A stretch of 34,218 nt of DNA, from NCBI GenBank assembly GCA_017436255.1, contig JAFSDK010000046.1, forward strand, positions 1 through 34,218, read 5' to 3'. The notes under the pieces were generated by a model. It worked only from the letters and a program-made list of their open reading frames with translations. It was not told the DNA's origin and searched no databases. A program made the position numbers and the translations under genes. The stretch's first letter is position 1. Each line of letters begins with the position of its first letter. Below are positions 6,571-33,149 of this stretch, piece by piece. Source of the DNA: Clostridia bacterium (lineage in GTDB: Bacteria > Bacillota > Clostridia > Oscillospirales > Acutalibacteraceae).

Positions 6571-7251
6571 TTGATATATATTACAGGCGATATGCACGGT
6601 GCTGAAGAGAGGCTCTATACAAAGGATTGGTTAAAACTTAAAAAGGGTGATATTCTTATTGTATGCGGCGATTTTGGATATTTGTGGAATGGTGACGCCA
6701 AAGAAAAAGAATATATCGAATATTTGGGCAGCCGCAAATTTACCGTCGCATTTATTGACGGTACTCACGATAATTTAGATTTAATTAATCGTTGCCGTAC
6801 TACCTATTGGAAGGGCGGTATGATACACCGAATAAGCGGTAACCTCATTCACCTTATGCGCGGTCAGATTTTTGATATAGATGGTACCCGTATATACACG
6901 TTTGGTGGGGGAGAGAGTACCGACAAAGATATGCGTATAGAAAACAATCTTTGGTGGAAGGAAGAAATACCATCACCAGAAGAGATGACCGAGGGAGCTA
7001 AAATTCTTGATGACTGCGGCAGACGTGTTGACTATATTATTACCCATGAGCCGCCTTCACTTGTAAAAAGTGCAATGCTTTTTAGATGGGGACTCCCTGA
7101 TAGAGTAAATAAATTAAACGGATATTTTGAAGAAATAGACGAAATGTGCGAATATAAGCATTGGTTTTTCGGCTCGCTCCATGAGGATAGGCTTGTCACA
7201 CCTAAACATACCTGCGTGTTCAAAAAATATCTTAGAATAGATAAATATTAA
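6571..7251 (+). CDS. Calcineurin-like metallophosphoesterase
   Basis: 226 aa, cytosolic. Metal-binding signatures occur in order: GDMHG (residues 6-10), GDFGYLW (about 33-39), a GTHDN segment near 64-68 where the family normally has GN-H-(D/E), and THEPPS near 156-161. The usual Asn of the third motif is therefore Thr. This subgroup resembles the phage-like or diadenosine-phosphatase-like metallophosphoesterases; the substrate is unknown. The TTG start at 6571 is chosen because AAAGGCGGTG lies seven to eight bases upstream and no ATG occurs before the GDMHG motif except within it. It is divergent from the carboxypeptidase. Confidence 0.85.
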   Translation: MIYITGDMHGAEERLYTKDWLKLKKGDILIVCGDFGYLWNGDAKEKEYIEYLGSRKFTVAFIDGTHDNLDLINRCRTTYWKGGMIHRISGNLIHLMRGQIFDIDGTRIYTFGGGESTDKDMRIENNLWWKEEIPSPEEMTEGAKILDDCGRRVDYIITHEPPSLVKSAMLFRWGLPDRVNKLNGYFEEIDEMCEYKHWFFGSLHEDRLVTPKHTCVFKKYLRIDKY

Positions 7252-7327: not shown

Positions 7328-9115
7328 ATGCTAAATACTGAGAGATTATGCCTTGGCTGTATGACTGATAATGGTGGCGAAAAGATTTGTTCAATCTGTG
7401 GGTTTGATAGTTCAGAGTCTAATGACAAAGAATATCTTAAACTTGGCTACTGGATTAGGGAAAGATATTTAGTAGGCCGCGTTATTGAACATAATGGCGA
7501 GGGCGTTACATACATTGGTTGGGATAATAAAGAGGACAGTATTGTTAATATACGTGAATATTATCCAAAGGGTGCGGCTGCTCGTAAAGAGGACGGCACC
7601 GTTGCCATTGTGGATGGTAGTGAATATACCTTTAATGAAGGTATAATGAGCTTTTTAGAACTCAATCGTAAAGTTGCTAGCCTTATGGATTTACCTTCAC
7701 TTTTGCCTACGGTTGATGTTTTTGAAGAAGGCGGTACCGCCTACAATATTACAAAAGCAGTACCGGGCATTACACTTCGTGAGTTTCTTATTCGCAACGG
7801 CGGTGATTTAACGTGGGAACAAGCACGTCCATTATTTTTACCGCTTATTACAACGATATCTGGGTTGCATGATGCCGGAATTATACATCGCGGTATTTCA
7901 CCCGACACTATTTTTGTTGGTCGTGACGGCAAGTTAAGAATTAAGGATATTTGTATCCGCTCAGTTCGTATGTCTAACAGTAATATGGCAATACAGCTTT
8001 TCCCTGGTTTTTCGGCGGTTGAGCAGTATGGTTACGACGTACAGTATCGTGACGGCAAATATACAGACGTTTATGGTATGGCAGCTACGCTTTTCCGTGT
8101 GCTTATGGGAAAGGCACCAACCGACGTTACAGAGCGTATTTCTAACGATAATATGCAAATACCTGCACGTTTTGCCGACGTTTTACCTAAATATGTTTTA
8201 GCGGCACTTGCTAATGGTTTGCAGTTGTTGCCGATTGACCGTATTCAAGATATGGATAGTTTCCGTATCGCCTTAACACCTATTTCGGGTGAATCAACAG
8301 TGGCATTTACTCCTGTTGCAGCCCCTGTTAAGCCTAAGACTACACCTTCAACGGTTAAAACGGGTTCGACGTCTGCTCCAAAGCCGGCGGCAAAACCTAC
8401 GTCAAAGCCGGCGGCAAAACCTGCGCCAAAGCCTGCACCAAAACCTGCACCAAAGCCTGCTGAAAAACCACAGAGAAACTATGCGGTGCTTTCATCACTA
8501 ATAACTGCACTTGTATTTATAATTATAGGCGTTGTACTTTACTTTGGGTTTGGCGTTGGTAAAGTAGTAGAAAAACCTGAAGAGCCTTCTAAACCTACTT
8601 CAGTGGTTGAACCGCCAAGTGAACTTGTATCTATTGATACAGGTGATCCAAACGTAAAACTCTATCAGGTTCCGAACCTTGTTGGCAAGAGATATGCGGA
8701 TATTATTGGTAATATCGATTATATTACCGTATTTGATTTTGAAATTGTTTCAAAAAAATATAGTGATAAACATCCACGAGGCTATATAATATCACAAGAA
8801 CAGACTTCTGAGCAAACTGTGAAAAAAGGAACAACAATTAAAATAGTGGTAAGTCTTGGACCTAAAACCGTTAAAATACCTTCATCAATTATTGGTAAAT
8901 CCTATGATGAAGCAGTTATAGAGTTATTAAAATTAGGTTTTAATTACAATAGTATTGAAAAACGTGAAATTTATGACGAAAACCAAACTCCGGGTGTAGT
9001 AGTTGATACTGAACCGGGGGTTGGTTCTGGCATCGACCTCGATGCAGGTGTTGTTTTAAGAGTAAATACTTATACAGGCGAAATTCCAACCCCACCTGAA
9101 AGTACCGAAGAATAA
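7328..9115 (+). CDS. Membrane pseudokinase with N-terminal zinc ribbon and two PASTA domains
   Basis: 595 aa. Order of parts: zinc-ribbon cysteines C8, C11, C21, C24; a Ser/Thr kinase-like domain at about 40-316; a Lys-Pro-Ala-rich linker (about 334-381); one transmembrane helix (385-410); and two PASTA repeats (about 446-511 and 514-580) outside the cell. PASTA domains bind muropeptides or beta-lactams in PrkC/PknB-type kinases. Every catalytic signature is altered: the beta-3 Lys is Arg (R76 in VNIREY), HRD is HRG (187-189), the loop Asn is Thr (T194), and DFG reads DIC (207-209). It should therefore be a pseudokinase that senses or scaffolds rather than phosphorylates. ATG follows AGAGGAG. 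It stands apart from a PP2C gene, unlike classic prkC-prpC loci. Confidence 0.85.
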   Translation: MLNTERLCLGCMTDNGGEKICSICGFDSSESNDKEYLKLGYWIRERYLVGRVIEHNGEGVTYIGWDNKEDSIVNIREYYPKGAAARKEDGTVAIVDGSEYTFNEGIMSFLELNRKVASLMDLPSLLPTVDVFEEGGTAYNITKAVPGITLREFLIRNGGDLTWEQARPLFLPLITTISGLHDAGIIHRGISPDTIFVGRDGKLRIKDICIRSVRMSNSNMAIQLFPGFSAVEQYGYDVQYRDGKYTDVYGMAATLFRVLMGKAPTDVTERISNDNMQIPARFADVLPKYVLAALANGLQLLPIDRIQDMDSFRIALTPISGESTVAFTPVAAPVKPKTTPSTVKTGSTSAPKPAAKPTSKPAAKPAPKPAPKPAPKPAEKPQRNYAVLSSLITALVFIIIGVVLYFGFGVGKVVEKPEEPSKPTSVVEPPSELVSIDTGDPNVKLYQVPNLVGKRYADIIGNIDYITVFDFEIVSKKYSDKHPRGYIISQEQTSEQTVKKGTTIKIVVSLGPKTVKIPSSIIGKSYDEAVIELLKLGFNYNSIEKREIYDENQTPGVVVDTEPGVGSGIDLDAGVVLRVNTYTGEIPTPPESTEE

Positions 9116-9342: not shown

Positions 9343-10380
9343 TTATTTTAACGTATTTAAAAGACTTACAAGTGCTTCCCCCGCATATGCCGCACCGCGC
9401 TTGGCCTCGTCAAGGGTGTTGGCTTCGGTGCCAACCTCAAGCAGTATCGACCCTTTTGTGAGATTTTGATTATATTTGCCGCTATTAAGTGTTATGGCGC
9501 GTGCAAGTCCCGGATACATAACCTCCAATGTTTGTTGATATTTTAGTGCTAAACTCAGGTTTTCTTTCCAATTGGGATAATTAGTGATACCGCCTGTTTG
9601 ACTACCCATAACAAGCATAACCTGTGCTGCATTTTTACCATCGATTTTAACTACCGGTTTTATCTTTTCTTTATTATTGGCAGTTATGGAATCTCTATGT
9701 ATGTCAATTACAATTTTTATTGATGGGTAGGCTTTTAGGTCGTCTGTTATTGTAGCGGCACTTCGCGTATAACTGCCTGAGTAGGCGGGATAGTCATGGA
9801 TTGTTGTGTCGTGAATTACTCCAATACCTGCCGCTTTTAACTTTTGCTCAATAATATCACCAATGGCAATCATATTTTTTTTACTATCGCGTGTGCGTGA
9901 TGCGTCATCCTCGGTATAGTAATCGCGTTCCTCAAGCATAAAACTTTCGGTTGTATGGGTGTGCATAATAAGTACTTGCGGTTTGTTGTTTTTATCAATT
10001 TTGAAGGATAACTTTTTTTCAAGTAGCGTTTTAATATTTATAGTGCTACCCGTATTATTTTTTAAATATACCTTATTATACTTTGTGCCGGCAGTATAAG
10101 GACTTATAAATTTTGCAGTTATGTTTCCAACTGCCTGTCCGCTTGCAGAAACTGTAGTACTTTGTGTGTCTTTATTGTTGGAACTACTGCTTGTGTTATC
10201 GGTGGCGCTTATTGTAGATGATGTATCAATATTGTCTGATAGGGGTTCTATCGGCAAAAAGTTTGTGTTGCTATTCGATATTGGCATAGAATAATTTACA
10301 TATTTTAAAAAGCAATGTGCGGTGGTGTATACAGATGCTAAAAGAACGCAGAAAATCAACATAATCCCTTTAAATTTCAT
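9343..10380 (-). CDS. spoIIP: Stage II sporulation protein P
   Basis: 345 aa. SpoIIP is a peptidoglycan amidase/endopeptidase that works with SpoIID and SpoIIM to thin septal wall and drive engulfment of the forespore. There is an N-terminal membrane/signal segment (about 5-25) and a Ser/Thr-rich low-complexity linker (about 38-82). The catalytic domain follows, with IMHTHTTESF (metal-binding His and Glu, about 138-147), IVIDIHRDS, a MVMGSQTGG segment and a C-terminal LLEVGTEANTLDEAKR. The ATG has GGTGAT just upstream and a SigE-like promoter (10398-10426). The gene is divergent from rpsT, matching the conserved rpsT/spoIIP neighbourhood of Firmicutes, though gpr is absent here. Confidence 0.93.
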   Translation of the reverse strand: MKFKGIMLIFCVLLASVYTTAHCFLKYVNYSMPISNSNTNFLPIEPLSDNIDTSSTISATDNTSSSSNNKDTQSTTVSASGQAVGNITAKFISPYTAGTKYNKVYLKNNTGSTINIKTLLEKKLSFKIDKNNKPQVLIMHTHTTESFMLEERDYYTEDDASRTRDSKKNMIAIGDIIEQKLKAAGIGVIHDTTIHDYPAYSGSYTRSAATITDDLKAYPSIKIVIDIHRDSITANNKEKIKPVVKIDGKNAAQVMLVMGSQTGGITNYPNWKENLSLALKYQQTLEVMYPGLARAITLNSGKYNQNLTKGSILLEVGTEANTLDEAKRGAAYAGEALVSLLNTLK

Positions 10381-12732: not shown

Positions 12733-13116
12733 ATGAGAAACTATTCAAAACAAAGGGAAGTAATAGTTGAAGTTTTACGCTCAACCGATACACATCCGAC
12801 GGTACAGTGGGTTTACGAAAAATGCCGAGAGAAATTACCTAAAATTAGTCTTGGCACAGTTTACCGTAATCTTACCGAGTTAAAAAAAGATGGTGATGTT
12901 TTAGAACTTTCGGTTGGCGATGGATTTCAACATTACGACGGTGACGTAAAAGAACATATGCATTTTTACTGTCACAATTGCGGCACGATATTAGACTGTG
13001 AGATGCCTAAAAACAATCTTAAAGACTTTCTGCAGAATAAACTTAACTGCGAAGTCAATTTAAGTGGTTATGTTTTTAGCGGTCTTTGCAGTTCTTGTAT
13101 AAATTTAAATGGATAA
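12733..13116 (+). CDS. perR: Fur-family peroxide-type repressor (PerR-like)
   Basis: 127 aa. Winged-helix N-terminal domain with [17 protein letters not shown] as the recognition region. C-terminal metal-binding domain with structural zinc cysteines C80/C83 (CHNC) and C119/C122 (CSSC), and regulatory ligands H75, H77 and D88. The Asp at position 88, rather than Glu, is the usual PerR-versus-Fur discriminator, so a peroxide sensor is favoured. The ATG follows GAGG. It is the first gene of a perR-rubrerythrin pair: the rubrerythrin starts 22 bases downstream, matching the clostridial pattern in which PerR represses reverse rubrerythrin. Confidence 0.88.
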
Positions 13117-13138: not shown

Positions 13139-13681
13139 ATGAAAAAGTTTGTTTGTACAATTTGCGGTTATACTCACGAAGGTACCAGCGCACCCGATAA
13201 GTGCCCCATTTGCCAGGCTCCGGCTACTAAATTCCAAGAGCAGGCAGGCGAAAAGACCTGGGCAGCAGAACACGTTGTAGGTGTTGCTAAGGGCGTTGAT
13301 GAAAGAATATTAGCAGGTCTTCGTGAAAACTTTATGGGCGAGTGCACCGAGGTTGGTATGTATCTTGCAATGGCAAGAGTAGCACACCGTGAAGGCTATC
13401 CGGAAATTGGTCTTTATTGGGAAAAAGCAGCTTATGAAGAAGCAGAACACGCTGCAAAGTTCGCAGAACTTTTGGGCGAAGTAGTAACAGATTCTACCAA
13501 GAAAAATCTTGAAATGAGAGTTGATGCCGAAAATGGCGCTACCTTAGGTAAGTTTGAACTTGCAAAGCTTGCTAAAGAGTTAAATCTCGACGCTATACAT
13601 GATACAGTTCATGAGATGGCACGTGATGAGGCTCGACATGGCAAAGCGTTTGAAGGACTTCTCGCTCGTTATTTCAAATAA
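13139..13681 (+). CDS. Reverse-order rubrerythrin (N-terminal rubredoxin domain)
   Basis: 180 aa from the ATG at 13139, set by TTAGGAG; a longer open frame to 13109 overlaps perR. Rubredoxin-type iron centre C6, C9, C22, C25 comes first, then a four-helix diiron domain with E68, E101/E103-H104 and E164-H167. That order is the opposite of classical rubrerythrin and matches the clostridial enzymes that reduce H2O2 and O2 with NADH-derived electrons. It is probably cotranscribed with perR. Its last 20 codons (from R162) are the sequence that recurs as fragments at 14754, 15369, 16448 and 16604. Confidence 0.93.
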
Positions 13682-13688
13682 TATTCGA

Positions 13689-13740
13689 TTGAAAAACACG
13701 TAAAGATGTGCTATCATAATGGTAGCACATCTTTTGTTTT
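13689..13740 (+). promoter_or_regulatory. Overlapping terminator/promoter module, copy A
   Basis: Hairpin GATGTGCTATCA/TGGTAGCACATC (13705-13731) plus TTTTGTTTT terminates the rubrerythrin message. TTGAAA (13689-13694), 17 bases, TATCAT (13712-13717) with TG one base before it also forms an extended -10 promoter whose -10 lies inside the left arm. Transcripts started here would lack that arm and so escape termination. The same arrangement recurs at 14821 and 15436. Confidence 0.6.
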
Positions 13741-13752
13741 GGGGTGATTAAA

Positions 13753-14613
13753 GTGAAAAAGATAATGGCAACTATTATTTCAACCGTTGTTTTGATTTTT
13801 TGCTTTTCAACTGTTTGTTATGCTTTTAGTCCGTCGGTCTATTTCTACTGTTGTGTTGCAACAAAAAAATTGCCTGAAAATACCGCTTACATTGATATTC
13901 TTTTTCCTATAAAGGAAACCGACCAAGATTATACTGACTATAACCTATCGAATGGACAGAAACACGGAATTTCAAAAAATAGTGAGATTGTAAAATATAA
14001 TAAAGATGGTTATGTGAGTTACACTTTTCATAATCAAAATTCAGAAAGCATAATAAAACCATTTTATCAAATAGACTTTATATGTGATAACGAATTTTAC
14101 AATAACAATACCACTTTATTTGATGGCCTAAATGAATTTGATATGGGAAATCCGATTAAAAAACAATATATGTTCACGGTGCCTATGAACAGCGCCCTTG
14201 AGGAAAAAGTGGATAATTTATTTATGTTCGCCCAAATGGATATAAGCACGGAAAAAGAAGATGTGTATGTTGAATTTTCAATGAAAGAAAAATTGAATAA
14301 AAACAGAATTAATGATTTTTCTGATTTAAGAGAAAAATACAAAACTGCAAAATTAGCCTATATTGACCAAAACGGAAATGTTATATCTGTAAGTAATTCA
14401 GCAGAGATTTATAGTAATAAAGAAAAGTTGTTGGGCTCTACCTACATTGAAATGAAATTAAACGGCGACAATCTTGATGTTTCTTTGAACTATGGACCAC
14501 CAATATTTTTAGGCGTGTTAGGATTGATGGTTTTTGCGATAGTGTTTTTTCTTGCAATAATCATTGCAATTATTTTCATATTTAAAATGAGCAAAACTAA
14601 GCGTGTTAATTGA
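13753..14613 (+). CDS. Secreted-domain membrane protein, unknown (cassette payload 1)
   Basis: 286 aa from the GTG at 13753, with GGGGTGA five bases upstream; the GTG at 13744 lies within that site. N-terminal signal peptide (about 1-24, ending near CYAF), a polar ectodomain of about 220 residues rich in Asn, Lys and Tyr, one C-terminal transmembrane helix (about 253-280) and a short basic tail. The topology is therefore type I membrane protein facing outside. I do not recognise the family. It is preceded by the rubrerythrin terminator/promoter module and followed by a fragment of the rubrerythrin gene, so it occupies the first cassette slot. It has no visible terminator of its own. Confidence 0.75.
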   Translation: MKKIMATIISTVVLIFCFSTVCYAFSPSVYFYCCVATKKLPENTAYIDILFPIKETDQDYTDYNLSNGQKHGISKNSEIVKYNKDGYVSYTFHNQNSESIIKPFYQIDFICDNEFYNNNTTLFDGLNEFDMGNPIKKQYMFTVPMNSALEEKVDNLFMFAQMDISTEKEDVYVEFSMKEKLNKNRINDFSDLREKYKTAKLAYIDQNGNVISVSNSAEIYSNKEKLLGSTYIEMKLNGDNLDVSLNYGPPIFLGVLGLMVFAIVFFLAIIIAIIFIFKMSKTKRVN

Positions 14614-14643
14614 CCCTAGTGTGGAAGGATATAATTTTTTTAC

Positions 14644-14753
14644 ATTGGTTTTCCTCATATCAAAATTTTCTATACTATGGGAATAGTTTTAGTGTGTATC
14701 AAAGTGTGTAACCCATAAAAAGTAGCTTGGAATAAGGCTTTTTTATGACTTTT
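14644..14753 (+). repeat. 110-bp repeat block, copy 1
   Basis: Matches 16338-16447 with a single difference (T for C in the stretch before AACCC). It runs directly into the rubrerythrin fragment at 14754, as does its partner into the one at 16448. It includes two direct AGTGTG hexamers 12 bases apart; a similar pair 11 bases apart is found just before the fragment at 15369. Confidence 0.85.
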
Positions 14754-14813
14754 CGTGACGAGACCCGTCACGGCAAAGCTTTCGAGGGACTCCTCAACCG
14801 TTATTTTAAGTAA
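14754..14813 (+). pseudogene. Rubrerythrin 3'-end fragment, copy B
   Basis: Encodes the last 19 residues plus stop of the rubrerythrin at 13139 ([19 protein letters not shown] against [19 protein letters not shown]). DNA differences are mostly at third codon positions, so the fragment diverged while it was still part of a coding gene. There is no upstream reading frame or start: homology begins exactly at the Arg-Asp-Glu codons. CGTGACG and CGTCACG at its start form an inverted repeat. Confidence 0.88.
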
Positions 14814-14820
14814 TGTCTGA

Positions 14821-14872
14821 TTGAAAAATCACCTAAGATGTGCTATCATAACGGTAGCACATCTTTTGTTTT
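14821..14872 (+). promoter_or_regulatory. Overlapping terminator/promoter module, copy B
   Basis: TTGAAA (14821-14826), 17 bases, TATCAT (14844-14849) with TG at 14841-14842. The hairpin 14838-14863 and TTTTGTTTT overlap the -10. Hexamers, spacing and hairpin match copy A while the spacer has changed. It drives the gene at 14884. Confidence 0.6.
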
Positions 14873-14883
14873 GGGGTGGTTTA

Positions 14884-15297
14884 GTGAAAAAAACTAAAAA
14901 GTTTATTTATCCCGTTATTTTTTCTGCACTTTTTTTGATTCTTTATATATCCTTTGTGCTTTTACTTACTACAGTTATTTCTTTTCCAAACGGAAGTTAT
15001 GCGCCTGCGGCTTTAGCAGTGTTGTTTACGTTTGCATGGCTTATTATTGCATTACCAATTTACTGTATAAGATATAGTAAAATAATTGTTGACGAGAAAT
15101 TAAAATTTCTGTTTCCCGTTTACAATTCTCTGCTAATTATATTGTCACATATGTTACCTTTTAATCTGCAAGGCGAAACAAGAATCATTACCCACTTTGT
15201 ACTTTGGGTGTTATTTTGGAATATGGTTCCGTTAATTTGTCGATTGATTTCTCGTAAATACGAAGAAAAAGACGCCGAAAAAGAAACTCAAGAATAG
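14884..15297 (+). CDS. Four-helix membrane protein, unknown (cassette payload 2)
   Basis: 137 aa from the GTG at 14884, with GGGGTGG (14873-14879) as ribosome site. The frame is open back to a TTG at 14821, but that codon is the -35 of the module promoter. Four hydrophobic segments (about 7-30, 40-60, 74-95, 103-122), short loops and a very acidic/basic C-terminal tail (about 124-137). It is an integral membrane protein with no recognised family. It shows no similarity by eye to payloads 1 or 3 beyond being a membrane protein, although its 5' leader is nearly identical to theirs. Confidence 0.7.
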   Translation: MKKTKKFIYPVIFSALFLILYISFVLLLTTVISFPNGSYAPAALAVLFTFAWLIIALPIYCIRYSKIIVDEKLKFLFPVYNSLLIILSHMLPFNLQGETRIITHFVLWVLFWNMVPLICRLISRKYEEKDAEKETQE

Positions 15298-15368
15298 TGT
15301 GACAAAAGTGTGATTTTGAAAAATCAAATAATAAAACCTTGATTTCAAGCAGTTTTAGGGCATGGTTT

Positions 15369-15428
15369 CAAGATGAAGCTCGCCACGGCAAGGCATTTGA
15401 GGGCCTGCTGAACCGTTATTTCGGTTAA
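15369..15428 (+). pseudogene. Rubrerythrin 3'-end fragment, copy C
   Basis: Encodes [19 protein letters not shown] plus stop. It starts at the same codon as copies B and D but carries R-to-Q and K-to-G changes and several synonymous differences, making it the most diverged of the full-length fragments. The sequence just upstream differs from that before B and D, but shares a paired AGTGTG motif (15297-15313). Confidence 0.85.
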
Positions 15429-15435
15429 TATCTGA

Positions 15436-15487
15436 TTGAAAAATCACTGGGGATGTGCTATCATAATGGTAGCACATCTTTTGTTTT
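15436..15487 (+). promoter_or_regulatory. Overlapping terminator/promoter module, copy C
   Basis: TTGAAA (15436-15441), 17 bases, TATCAT (15459-15464) with TG one base before. The hairpin 15452-15478 and TTTTGTTTT are as in copies A and B. It fronts the gene at 15502. Confidence 0.6.
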
Positions 15488-15501
15488 AAGGGGGTTAATT
15501 T

Positions 15502-16131
15502 GTGAATAGTTTATTTAAAAGCAAACCTAAAAATATAATAGCAATTTGCTTTACGGCATTTTACACTTTAATGCTTATTTTGGACGTGGAATTTTTGCAA
15601 TTTCCATTTATTACACATCCTAGATATGCGGTAAACTCTTTGGTCATATATTTAGTACCTTTAATAACTCCTGCTTTGGTTTTGATTTATCTAATTTTTG
15701 TAAACAAGGAATATAAATTAAAAAAATGGCTCTTTCCCATTGCATTTGCGGTAAAAATCATTACTGCCTTTCTAGCGACCTATAATTTGTTTGGAAGGTT
15801 AGCTTTAATTGGTGTGATGCCGGCATATATATTACTTATCTTTTGTTCGCTCTTAACATTAGTTGCCACTGTATTTATGTTTGTAGGAACACTTTTTAAT
15901 TTTAAATACATCATATTTTTAAAATATGGAGCAATTAGCTGTGCGGTTTTGCTGTTTATGGCACCTGTTATAAACTACATATTGTTTAAAGCTTTCGCAT
16001 ATATGCCAAGTGCCTTGTTAGGAGTGCCTGATGTAGGCTTGCCTGTATTGATAGAAACTTTAATAGCTACACTCCTATACGTTGGCATATTCCTTTTAAC
16101 CACCAATAAAAAGAGCATTGATTCGATATAA
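15502..16131 (+). CDS. Six-helix membrane protein, unknown (cassette payload 3)
   Basis: 209 aa from the GTG at 15502, with AAGGGGG (15488-15494) upstream. About six transmembrane segments (roughly 9-27, 41-64, 74-92, 100-130, 137-160, 177-199) and a short polar C-terminus. No family is recognised. It has the same GTG start and leader style as the two preceding payloads. Unlike them it has its own strong terminator (16134-16159), after which a fragment of the isomerase gene is found instead of a rubrerythrin fragment. Confidence 0.7.
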   Translation: MNSLFKSKPKNIIAICFTAFYTLMLILDVEFLQFPFITHPRYAVNSLVIYLVPLITPALVLIYLIFVNKEYKLKKWLFPIAFAVKIITAFLATYNLFGRLALIGVMPAYILLIFCSLLTLVATVFMFVGTLFNFKYIIFLKYGAISCAVLLFMAPVINYILFKAFAYMPSALLGVPDVGLPVLIETLIATLLYVGIFLLTTNKKSIDSI

Positions 16132-16133
16132 TA

Positions 16134-16159
16134 AAAAAGAGCCTTTACGGCTCTTTTTT
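16134..16159 (+). terminator. Terminator of payload 3
   Basis: AAAAAGAGCC (16134-16143), five-base loop, GGCTCTTTTT (16149-16158) and further T. The A-rich 5' arm makes it usable from both sides. Confidence 0.88.
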
Positions 16160-16167
16160 ATGCTTAT

Positions 16168-16342
16168 TTATTTTATTATTTGCTCTATAATATATCTGCC
16201 TGTTTGCTCCATAAATTTAAGGGCGGTTGGTAGAAAATCATCGGGCACGTTATGCAAAAAGTTATCGGTTTCAAAGGTCATATCACCCATATAGTCTATA
16301 TCCCTATATCCCTTAATCCCTTAATAAAGGGATCAAAATTGG
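16168..16342 (-). pseudogene. 3' fragment of sugar-phosphate isomerase gene
   Basis: Corresponds to the last 55-60 codons of the gene at 18678-19553. Identity is near complete across most of its length, but the final 13 codons differ clearly (ending IIEQIIK instead of FIAQIKKYK). An extra eight-base unit (TATATCCC duplicated near 16305) breaks the frame. It keeps its own stop (16168-16170) but has no 5' part: homology ends at AAAACCAATTT, where it joins the 110-bp repeat block through the shared sequence ATTGGTTTTC. It is a diverged 3' end, not a simple recent duplication. Confidence 0.88.
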
Positions 16343-16447
16343 TTTTCCTCATATCAAAATTTTCTATACTATGGGAATAGTTTTAGTGTGTATCAAAGTG
16401 TGCAACCCATAAAAAGTAGCTTGGAATAAGGCTTTTTTATGACTTTT
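16338..16447 (+). repeat. 110-bp repeat block, copy 2
   Basis: Near-identical to 14644-14753 (one difference seen). It overlaps the end of the isomerase fragment by the common ATTGG bases and leads straight into rubrerythrin fragment D. Together with copy 1 it forms long direct repeats around payloads 2 and 3, a substrate for deletion or expansion by homologous recombination. Confidence 0.85.
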
Positions 16448-16507
16448 CGTGACGAAGCTCGTCACGGCAAGGCTTTCGAGGGACTTCTTAACCGTTATTT
16501 CAAATAA
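16448..16507 (+). pseudogene. Rubrerythrin 3'-end fragment, copy D
   Basis: Encodes [19 protein letters not shown] plus stop, about 80 percent identical at DNA level to the intact gene end, with changes mainly synonymous. Its first 19 bases form a perfect 8-bp inverted repeat, CGTGACGA-AGC-TCGTCACG. It is not followed by the terminator/promoter module; a miniature palindromic element comes next. Confidence 0.88.
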
Positions 16508-16522
16508 TAAATAATTGTAATC

Positions 16523-16593
16523 GTAGGGCGGGGGCTTGTCTCCCGCCGTTTTGTTTTTGTGATACTTTCGGCAGGACCAAGGCCCTGCCCTAC
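16523..16593. mobile_element. Miniature palindromic element (MITE/REP-like)
   Basis: About 71 bp bounded by GTAGGGC (16523-16529) and GCCCTAC (16587-16593), with two internal hairpins (GGCGGG with CCCGCC; GGCAGG with CCCTGCC). It is strikingly GC-rich against an AT-rich background and has no coding capacity. It lies between rubrerythrin fragments D and E, which suggests it inserted into this debris. Form and composition resemble non-autonomous repeats common in Clostridia; no transposase is present. Confidence 0.65.
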
Positions 16594-16603
16594 AAAATAT
16601 AAG

Positions 16604-16654
16604 CCTCGTCACGGTAAGGCTTTTGAGGGTCTTCTTAACAGATACTTCAAATAA
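16604..16654 (+). pseudogene. Rubrerythrin 3'-end fragment, copy E (shorter)
   Basis: Encodes [15 protein letters not shown] plus stop in frame, but the Arg-Asp-Glu-Ala codons are missing: homology starts at the right arm of the inverted repeat seen in copy D. It has its own synonymous differences (AGA for CGT, TAC for TAT). A weak GGGAGA/TCTCCC hairpin (16669-16689) and T-rich tract follow. The rest of the 655-base gap before 16787 holds nothing else I can identify. Confidence 0.8.
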
Positions 16655-16734
16655 GAGTTTTAAATGGGGGGAGACATCTGTTTTCTCCCGTTATTTTTAT
16701 ATGATGCATTTTGATTAGTAAGAATACAGTTATA

Positions 16735-18677: not shown

Positions 18678-19553
18678 TTATTTATATTTCTTTATCTGCG
18701 CTATAAAATATCTACCCGTCTGCTCCATAAATTTAAGGGCGGTTGGTAGAAAATCATCGGGCACGTTATGCAAAAAGTTATCGGTTTCAAAGGTCATATC
18801 ACCCATATAGTCTATATCCCTTAATCCCTTAATAAAGGGATCGAAATTGGTTTTCGACATAAAGGGAAGCGTATGTTGGTCATTTAAATAATCGTTATCG
18901 TGCAGATGTATTGCCTGTAAACGCTTCTGCCCTAGTGTGATAATTGCATCGTACATTGGCTCATCAACAAGTCCTAAGTGGCCGATATCAAGGCAACCTA
19001 CAATCCACTCACTGCCAACCGCATCAATATAGCGGCTAAACTCTTCTGCGTGTGAGCAGGGTGCGTGGACGATTTTATTTGTGCCTAGTACACGTTGCCA
19101 CATGTTTTCGGTGGCAACCTTAATACCAAATTTTTCGCAATAGGGAACAAGGCGATTGTAAAAATCAACGTTCATTTTAAAAAGCTCGAACTTGTTGTCG
19201 GCATATCTCAAATGTTGCATAGGATGAACAACAATAATTTTGGCACCAAGAATGGCGGCAATTTCCATTGCCTTTACGATAAGCTCAAATCGATTTTTAT
19301 CCCACTCCTCATCGCCCTTGCTTGAGGGGTAGGGGGCGTGAGATTGATTACAAACGATACCTAATTTATCGGCAAATTCACGTAATTCTTTAGCAACCGA
19401 CACGTAATTTTCACAATTAAGTGCGTAGTCGTCGTCTACCAGTCTCGTCAGCGAAATATCATAAGCATCAAAACCGGCATTAGCTATCAATTCAATAGCC
19501 TTTTCATCCCCAAATTTTTTACTTAGAGGTAGTGTTAGTGTTGATAGAAGCAT
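18678..19553 (-). CDS. Sugar phosphate isomerase/epimerase (xylose isomerase-like TIM barrel)
   Basis: 291 aa from the ATG at 19553, where AGGTGA gives good spacing; a GTG at 19562 is closer to that site. AP-endonuclease-2/xylose isomerase-like barrel: N-terminal AIELIANAGFDAYDIS, NQSHAPYPS, IIVVHPMQH, ATENMW, GCLDIGHLG and IHLHDND place the usual Glu, Asp and His metal ligands along the barrel strands. The substrate is unknown. It is a single gene with a TTGACC-N17-TATAAT promoter (19583-19611). Its last 55-60 codons are partly duplicated at 16168-16342. Confidence 0.85.
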   Translation of the reverse strand: MLLSTLTLPLSKKFGDEKAIELIANAGFDAYDISLTRLVDDDYALNCENYVSVAKELREFADKLGIVCNQSHAPYPSSKGDEEWDKNRFELIVKAMEIAAILGAKIIVVHPMQHLRYADNKFELFKMNVDFYNRLVPYCEKFGIKVATENMWQRVLGTNKIVHAPCSHAEEFSRYIDAVGSEWIVGCLDIGHLGLVDEPMYDAIITLGQKRLQAIHLHDNDYLNDQHTLPFMSKTNFDPFIKGLRDIDYMGDMTFETDNFLHNVPDDFLPTALKFMEQTGRYFIAQIKKYK

Positions 19554-19582
19554 AAAGGTCACCTACTTTAATTTATAAAATA

Positions 19583-32612: not shown

Positions 32613-33149
32613 ATGGAACTTAAGGGCTCAAGAACCGAGGCCAACTTGATGGCCGCATTTGCAGGTGAATCACAGGCAAGAAACAAGTACACATATTATG
32701 CTTCAAAAGCAAGAAAGGACGGCTACGTTCAGATTGCCGAAATTTTTGAAGAAACAGCAAACAATGAAAAGGAACATGCTAAAATTTGGTTTAAGCTTCT
32801 TCATGGTGGTATTCAGAATACTGAAATTAACCTTGAAGATGCCGCAGCAGGTGAAAATTATGAGTGGACAGAGATGTACGCTGAATTTGCAAAGGTAGCC
32901 AAGGAAGAGGGATTTGATAAGATTGCAGCACTTTTTGAGGGCGTAGCACTTATTGAAAAAGAACACGAAAAGCGTTATTTAAAGCTTCTTGAAAACGTTA
33001 AGGGCGGACTTGTTTTCTCAAAAGACAACGACGCTATCTGGCAGTGCATTAACTGTGGTCATATCGTTATCGGTAAGCAGGCTCCTGAAGTTTGCCCTGT
33101 ATGCGCTCATCCACAGGCTTACTTCAAACTTAAAGAAGTTAACTATTAA
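32613..33149 (+). CDS. rbr: Rubrerythrin (classical order)
   Basis: 178 aa. The N-terminal diiron four-helix domain has E19, E52, E54-H55 and E115-H118; the C-terminal rubredoxin domain has C145, C148, C161, C164. It reduces hydrogen peroxide to water in the cytosol of anaerobes. The domain order is the opposite of the enzyme at 13139, and the two are only distantly similar in sequence. AAGGAGG gives a strong ribosome site. The only candidate control element is the inverted repeat at 32567. Confidence 0.95.

Follow-up and report, generated by a model that had tools for sequence, protein, structure and literature searches.

Single-gene cassettes arrayed at the 3' end of a rubrerythrin gene in Clostridia, probably integrase-less units moved by site-specific tyrosine integrases

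Repeated rubrerythrin ends in the window

The stretch of DNA analysed here (the window) is 34,218 nucleotides (nt) long and comprises contig 42 (JAFSDK010000046.1) of a Clostridia bacterium of the Acutalibacteraceae (assembly GCA_017436255.1), whose 1.61 Mb genome is 98.5% complete. It contains a rubrerythrin gene (rbr) followed on the same strand by three compact units, each of which begins with a copy of the rbr 3' end and closes with an arm abutting the next such end (Table 1). In the following, G-numbers denote genomes (G000 is the host of the window), L-numbers denote fetched loci and W stands for the window.

A degenerate DNA pattern representing the C-terminal end of rbr matched at 13634, 14766, 15381, 16460 and 16607, in all cases on the plus strand and without mismatch, and no match was obtained in 100 shuffles of the sequence. 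The five same-strand copies described in the initial annotation are therefore real. They were the only matches in the whole of G000, even when up to three mismatches were allowed, and in a repeat search the copies shared 80-88% identity with the reference copy (16458) over 50 nt. The fragments had been described as starting at the codon for R162. A common start was indeed found in the three long fragments, at D163 (GAY) instead; the preceding codon, CAA in fragment 2 and CGT in the other two, is taken to belong to the upstream arm and not to be R162 of rbr. The repeated unit also turned out to be larger than first described, as it includes a promoter/terminator block and the arms. The rbr ends with stop codons at 13681, 14813 and 15428 run on into a common block of 144 nt with 73-78% identity to the first copy, and the segments 14644-14826 and 16338-16520 are 92% identical.

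About 85 nt separate displaced ends 3 and 4 (16515-16600); their termini, GTAGGGC...GCCCTAC, resemble by eye those of a small inverted-repeat element. A second, different rubrerythrin-type gene was recognised by eye at 32613-33149.

Table 1. Positions of the genes, cassettes and cassette parts at the rubrerythrin locus of the window
Feature	Positions	Strand	Remarks
perR/fur-type regulator gene	12733..13116	+	Pfam FUR 3.3e-22; upstream of rbr
Rubrerythrin gene (rbr), 180 aa, proposed integration target	13139..13681	+	Pfam RUBY_RBDX 7.7e-15, Rubrerythrin 3.8e-11
Cassette 1, 1132 nt core to core	13625..14756	+	core positions
Promoter-like pair of cassette 1, TTGAAA-17-TATCAT	13689..13717	+	TG before -10
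Terminator-like hairpin enclosing the -10 of cassette 1	13702..13734	+	-19.7 kcal/mol, z -6.5 for 13700-13742
Payload 1, 286 aa	13753..14613	+	by eye, signal-peptide-like start and C-terminal membrane segment; no family above cut-off
Right arm of cassette 1, class b	14644..14756	+	repeat GTGTGTATCAAAGTGTG at 14692-14708
Cassette 2, 615 nt	14757..15371	+	core positions
Displaced rbr 3' end 1 (18 codons + stop), opens cassette 2	14757..14813	+	repeat and alignment comparison
Promoter-like pair of cassette 2, TTGAAA-17-TATCAT	14821..14849	+	hairpin 14835-14865
Payload 2, 137 aa, membrane protein (by eye)	14884..15297	+	relative in L066
Right arm of cassette 2, class a	15297..15371	+	repeat GTGTGACAAAAGTGTG at 15297-15312
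Cassette 3, 1079 nt, composite	15372..16450	+	core positions
Displaced rbr 3' end 2 (18 codons + stop), opens cassette 3	15372..15428	+	repeat and alignment comparison
Promoter-like pair of cassette 3, TTGAAA-17-TATCAT	15436..15464	+	hairpin 15449-15481
Payload 3, 209 aa, membrane protein (by eye)	15502..16131	+	family also in L045, L065, L068, L069, L081
Copy of isomerase-type gene 3' end, inside cassette 3	16156..16346	+	90% identical to the window's own copy, 18670 onward
Right arm of cassette 3, class b	16338..16450	+	repeat at 16386-16402
Displaced rbr 3' end 3 (18 codons + stop)	16451..16507	+	repeat and alignment comparison
Displaced rbr 3' end 4	16607..16654	+	homology only from R166; terminator-like hairpin 16663-16692 after it
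Isomerase-type gene	18678-19562		neighbouring gene; its 3' end is copied in cassette 3

Anatomy of the cassettes

In each of the first three rbr ends the stop codon is followed after 7 nt by TTGAAA, a spacer of 17 nt and TATCAT preceded by TG, and this -10 box sits within a hairpin of 13-15 pairs with a T-rich tail behind it. The three promoter-like pairs are among the four top-scoring ones of the region (10/12 matches). Each promoter/hairpin block is followed by a ribosome site and a single open reading frame (ORF). A transcript reading through from rbr would fold the whole hairpin, and in transcripts that begin at the embedded promoter the left arm would be missing; the hairpin would thus stop read-through from rbr while the nested promoter fires past the hairpin's left arm. 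The right arms share a direct repeat, GTGTG-N3/4-AAAGTGTG, which starts at 14692, 15297 and 16386 and has no other occurrence in the window. In cassette 2 the repeat overlaps the payload by one base, the last of the stop codon being the first of the repeat.

The cassettes had been described as lacking a recombinase, and none was found among the three payload ORFs, which matched no integrase or transfer family in Pfam, PHROGs or NCBIfam. Searches for payload function with PADLOC, PHROGs and NCBIfam gave no match either; Pfam returned only DUF4064 for payload 1, with an E-value of 0.037 that is under the cut-off. Ten further payloads, taken from other loci, did not pass the curated Pfam cut-off, and in the window no Rfam family reached its gathering score.

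Displaced ends share a breakpoint at D163

When 398 genomes of the family were searched with the rbr end, a match was obtained in 201. Among the matches listed, at least 12 genomes had two or more copies on the same strand and contig within 11 kb, four of them doubtful: in G208 and G029 the rbr copies are longer, and in G252 and G379 the second ends are degraded.

The 70 rbr ends present in the fetched loci were sorted by the number of matches to rbr among the 13 residues upstream. This gave 38 full or long ends (at least 7/13; one of these, L078:2863, is itself cut at about residue 155), two of middle class (L050, L128) and 30 displaced ends (3/13 or fewer), one of which, L129:13709, is a chance match. 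D-E-[A/T/L]-R-H-G stands at the start of 25 of the remaining 29 displaced ends, with at most one upstream match in 24 of the 25; since the loci were chosen for clustering or for the hairpin and related cassettes were counted separately, these are not independent events. The displaced end in L048 has three upstream matches and is rbr-like from about residue 155. The core is degraded in the other four (W 16598, L047:1472, L052 and L140:804). Two additional degraded ends (L051, L142) fell outside the script matches, and the piece in G548 (L129) is longer, starting at residue 124. The displaced ends of many Clostridia genomes thus begin at the same codon, D163.

The repeats all lie on one strand, as they would after tandem duplication of rbr with a neighbouring gene and decay of the extra copies, and G208 and G029 do have two longer rbr copies. 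Such decay in place was named at the outset as an outcome that would speak against insertion; no graded series of shortening copies was seen in the fetched loci. Duplication also fits poorly with the single start of the displaced ends, with the abutting of non-homologous arms and with the different payloads, and we consider it highly improbable.

Tyrosine integrases and their arms at the rubrerythrin site

The initial annotation had proposed looking for a recombinase shared by genomes with such arrays, and elements with a tyrosine integrase were found to use the same rbr 3'-end site. With the integrase of G001, a genome of the same genus, as query (E ≤ 1e-50), matches were obtained in 4 of the 398 family genomes and in 5 of 384 genomes of the order, the two sets overlapping in part. 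All nine adjoin rbr or its displaced 3' end, so that exclusiveness to rbr applies to close relatives at this threshold. In G001, G147 and G254 the elements measure 5-10 kb from core to core with the integrase inside; depending on which start codon is chosen, its gene begins about 90-160 nt away from the displaced end. In G526 the two cores are only some 2.2 kb apart. What was seen in G318 and G586 is the rbr side alone, and in G449, G548 and G670 a 3' piece alone. A further integrase, found with another query (4e-26) at the rbr end of G365, contains an internal stop.

Four of the rbr integrases have the Pfam domains Phage_integrase and Phage_int_SAM_3, the latter once just below the cut-off. 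Their best relative of solved structure is PDB 6en0, which we take to be Int of the transposon Tn1549 (catalytic domain, E 3e-14); the match to IntI4 is weaker (1.2e-6). In a tree that contained the XerC and XerD of G000 and no other phage integrase, 11 rbr-site integrases grouped together, with half of the inner branches open.

Two elements bear on the relation between integrases and cassettes. In SIG601 (G742) the C-terminal part of an integrase gene opens a contig with two cassettes, is oriented toward the array and ends about 70 nt short of the first core; a second contig of this genome (L063) ends just past rbr and the promoter block. The integrase gene may itself sit in cassette format as the first member of the array, with an assembly gap between the contigs. 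The G001 element, which lies directly upstream of a unit made of hairpin and payload 3, encodes a Rep of rolling-circle type (L045, oriented 7929-8732; PF23343 3e-12, phrog_3584 1e-64), and no conjugation gene was recognised among its three scanned ORFs. A 495-aa ORF looked Mob-like by eye; it matched nothing in Pfam, PHROGs or NCBIfam, and the element is not claimed to be an integrative and mobilizable element (IME). Small resolvase-like genes were noticed by eye near the rbr side of two integrase elements (L048, oriented 6604-7212; L131, 3578-4177).

The 85 nt to the left of the core were compared between 17 cassette arms, some of them related to each other, and the arms of the integrase elements, with 300 shuffles as control. 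The cassette arms matched the G001 arm with a mean score of 32.6 compared to 15.7 in the shuffles (z 12.7), the SIG601 arm with z 5.5 and the G526 arm with z 4.9; in none of the three comparisons did any of the 300 shuffles reach the score.

Occurrence of the cassette format in other genomes

An exact scan for the hairpin in a collection of 84,980 species genomes identified 19 stretches, all titled as Clostridia or Oscillospiraceae metagenome-assembled genomes (MAGs). According to their titles thirteen come from gut samples of goat, sheep or deer; the titles of the six with SIG numbers give no source. Rbr or a fragment of it lies within 18 of the stretches, and in the nineteenth (L068), the start of contig G297:C8, rbr is found about 260 nt beyond the end of the stretch; thus all 19 are at rbr loci.

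These stretches contain 21 hairpins, which make 24 together with the three of the window. All 24 have TTG at the -35 position and a spacing of 17 nt to TATCAT. The -35 box lies 6-7 nt past the rbr stop codon in 18 (exactly 7 in 17), and the next core follows within 1.5 kb in 14. Where both ends could be measured, the cassettes are 428 to 1243 nt long. A looser scan of the fetched loci yielded 29 distinct hairpin promoters, in which the stems vary on both sides (GATGTGC/GCACATC, GATATGC/GCATATC, AGCATGC/GCATGCT) and the -35 and -10 boxes are constant.

The contents of the locus differ between relatives: some have payloads of other kinds or a single cassette, and in G002, which belongs to the same genus, the rbr end occurs just once. 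Some payload families recur across arrays, among them payload 1 in L080, payload 2 in L066, payload 3 in the five loci named in Table 1 and a lipoprotein family in L073, L075 and L076. A single small ORF is also present in some cassettes without a hairpin of the standard type (G252, G055, G353), and L140 (G353:C33) has a unit of 169 nt without ORF payload between two rbr cores (50-219). This unit contains a foldback, GGGAGAG...CTCTCCC, that resembles half a tRNA by eye; ARAGORN found no tRNA in it.

Two more observations concern these loci. On the minus strand of L093 (G226) at 2172, and in L072 after the first payload, a second gene follows a different palindrome built to the same plan, with TTGACA, 17 nt and TATCTT within the hairpin. 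In L139 (G365) a P-loop kinase-like gene (9702-10214) lies on the opposite strand just beyond a displaced rbr end and by eye closely resembles the payload of L064.

Sharing of payloads between species

Between the window and L080, a locus of another species, payload 1 is 97.8% and the arm 97.2% identical, compared to 78.8% for rbr codons 1-162. On the right the identity drops at the core, and the displaced end past GACGAG is 66.7% identical. In the pair L074/L077 the values are 98.0% for the payload and 83.5% for rbr. The difference between payload and rbr identity is significant for both pairs (Fisher, 9e-31 and 5e-9, respectively). Purely vertical divergence, the other outcome that would have spoken against insertion, was not seen in these pairs, and judged by sequence comparison an exchange of cassette size between species, as opposed to vertical descent, is clear in at least one case.

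Payload 3 behaves differently in the comparison with G001, with 65.8% identity against 86-88% for the flanking genes. Payload-3-like genes without a core within 1.5 kb were found after rbr or rbr-ferritin in L067, L068, L069 and L081; such genes may be long-standing residents that gave rise to cassettes. Cassette 3 also contains the copied 3' end of an isomerase-type gene, which is 83% identical to the gene of G001 and is joined to the class b arm at a 9-nt match, ATTGGTTTT. This fusion indicates that illegitimate joining also shapes the array and that its order is no clean record.

One could regard the cassettes as decayed IME remnants, that is, cis-mobilizable elements (CIMEs) or microCIMEs that spread only with an island carrying an integrase element or by descent. 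The class b arms keep a leftward promoter-like pair (9/12 matches), as an integrase upstream region might have, and the position of the G001 element next to a payload 3 unit would agree with such an origin. The payload-less unit of G353 resembles the microCIMEs described in an excerpt of PMC7563491. Decay explains less easily why the single-gene format, with its one promoter block, is largely uniform in different genera, and why cassette 1 is shared with L080 as a single unit with identity up to the right core. The arms are related to those of the G001, G526 and SIG601 elements, and no deletion intermediate between an integrative and conjugative element (ICE) or IME and the cassettes was seen. 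We hold decay to be possible but doubtful.

Proposed mechanism and its difficulties

We consider it likely that the array consists of integrase-less, CIME-like gene cassettes moved site-specifically by tyrosine integrases that recognise rbr. This reading draws on the common breakpoint, the integrase clade at the same site, the shared arms, the fixed format and the payloads shared across species, and retains the initial proposal of payload-plus-gene-end cassettes inserted by a recombinase encoded elsewhere. A cassette would consist of the rbr 3' end (codon 163 to stop), 7 nt, the hairpin-nested promoter, a ribosome site, one gene, a right arm of about 75-110 nt and then the next core. An integrase of the rbr clade would recombine the core of the cassette with that of rbr at about codons 163-166; the incoming copy would restore the reading frame of rbr, the old end would be pushed downstream and the payload would arrive with its own promoter. 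In the window the last 18 codons of rbr and its stop (13625-13681) would have been supplied by cassette 1. The crossover chemistry is presumed, and mobilisation would take place either in trans or through accretion with an element that carries an integrase.

A number of points weigh against this account. Movement of the cassettes as such (circles, excision, action in trans) is presumed, and the loci are mostly draft MAGs, in which chimeras are possible. Host genome G000 has no relative of the rbr integrase, its tyrosine recombinases being XerC/XerD-like only; its three large serine recombinases are on contigs other than that of the window. The 19 hairpin stretches come from 18 genomes, of which 15 MAGs were searched at E ≤ 1e-15, and 14 of these lack an integrase of the clade, SIG601 being the exception; of the other three, G233 and G003 gave no match at 1e-50 and G001 has the integrase. 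No relative of the integrase was found in viral, phage and plasmid searches (IMG/VR; tblastn against phages and plasmids at 1e-20).

The arms and the cassette boundaries add to these difficulties. The G254 and G147 arms are unlike the cassette arms (z 0.0 and -0.1), those of G365 and G670 match them weakly (3 and 5 of 300 shuffles, respectively, reach the score), and arm-type repeats were seen by eye at both ends of the G001 element and only at the right end of the cassettes. Ten of the 24 hairpins are not followed by a core within 1.5 kb (for L063, one of the ten, the contig ends), so that a number of the payloads may be residents. In L080 the last codons of rbr hardly differ from those of the displaced end, and an insert lies between the rbr stop codon and the promoter, 119 nt from stop to -35 box, the block being 88.7% identical to that of the window; on its left side this locus thus shows no clean end replacement. 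The arms of L074 and L077 (83%) are less alike than their payloads, and in the pair L071/L078 the similarity of the payload (99.2%) persists through the displaced end (98.3%) and falls only after it, with no full rbr adjoining in L078. The idea that the array is an ordered record of acquisitions holds in a loose sense only, given the fusion of cassette 3 to a chromosomal gene end, some comparisons whose break lies away from the core, and payload-3-like genes without a displaced end after them.

Some of these irregularities would suit homologous recombination of incoming DNA through the conserved rbr ends and promoter blocks that flank the payloads, without any integrase. The repeated 57-nt ends and the promoter blocks offer homology, the arms and payload of L074/L077 have different histories, the L071/L078 similarity extends through the displaced end, and in cassette 3 DNA of an isomerase gene was joined to an arm at a short match. 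Homologous recombination leaves unexplained why the displaced ends so regularly start at D163 and why integrase elements, three of them with related arms, occupy the same site; we regard it as unlikely.

A phage or plasmid origin was also considered and rejected: three records filed as phage and found by blastn, L042, L043 and L044 (MT835489, MT836870, MT835718), hold a full rbr among ordinary-looking bacterial genes and are probably host DNA. Blastn of the array gave no match among plasmids, and neither the hairpin nor the arm nor either of two integrase queries led to a confirmed locus in IMG/VR.

If movement by rbr-specific integrases is correct, Clostridia would possess, at a conserved gene for oxidative stress, a compact site of gene capture. 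Its cassettes would be simple enough to assay and would make up a natural class of mobile units below one kilobase, intermediate between microCIMEs and gene islands. The terminator-nested promoter would insulate an inserted gene neatly. An integrase and target pair would be suggested for gene insertion in gut Clostridia with the target kept intact, and multiple origins of integron-like shuffling would become testable. Along this line we advance, tentatively and at somewhat less than even chances, that an integron-like system evolved independently in Clostridia, in which the integrase clade at the rbr end captures and shuffles expression cassettes of one standard single-gene type, each with a terminator-nested promoter, from a pool shared across genera.

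Comparison with known systems

Staphylococcal cassette chromosome (SCC) elements insert at the 3' end of rlmH (orfX), form tandem arrays and include members without recombinase genes. They use serine recombinases (Ccr), are much larger and have another target gene; here the site is in rbr and the integrases are of the tyrosine type. Tn1549 is a conjugative transposon, and its presumed Int (6en0) resembles the rbr integrases in the catalytic domain and differs from them in the choice of target.

Integrons, too, use a tyrosine recombinase. Like integron cassettes and clusters of attC sites lacking integron-integrases (CALINs), the rbr units are one-gene cassettes in arrays, including arrays without an integrase (PMC11389934, in excerpt). 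Unlike in integrons and CALINs, the junctions here consist of a gene 3' end and arm repeats, and the hairpin cassettes carry their own promoter. The rbr-site integrases match 6en0 better than IntI4, and integrons are alike in layout, not in enzyme; the rbr array would be based on sites of phage-type integrases.

The CIMEs of Streptococcus salivarius measure 1.2-13 kb and carry cargo, and the microCIMEs measure 130-220 bp and carry no genes; like the rbr cassettes, whose flanking core would be such a site, they are flanked by att sites, lack integrase and transfer genes and occur in tandem, near integrase elements, where a protein-coding gene has its 3' end (PMC7563491, in excerpt). A core is present on both sides of cassettes 1-3, where it would serve as an active att site, and an integrase of their own, as in an IME, was not found in the array, nor was a member of the rbr clade in G000. 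The rbr cassettes differ from CIMEs and microCIMEs, as described in the same excerpt, in their size of 0.43-1.24 kb, their single gene and their standard promoter/terminator block. The ssrA islands of Dehalococcoides are likewise in tandem and split by gene-3'-end repeats, and 15 of them lack an integration module and have been proposed to be CIMEs; unlike the rbr cassettes they have a tmRNA target, Ccr-like serine recombinases and many genes (PMC3146451, in excerpt). No report of rbr as an attachment target of an integrase or island was found in our searches of an open-licence library. Among known systems, the standard single-gene, promoter-bearing cassettes at this target come closest to CIMEs that are in accretion with IMEs and to the Dehalococcoides ssrA islands.

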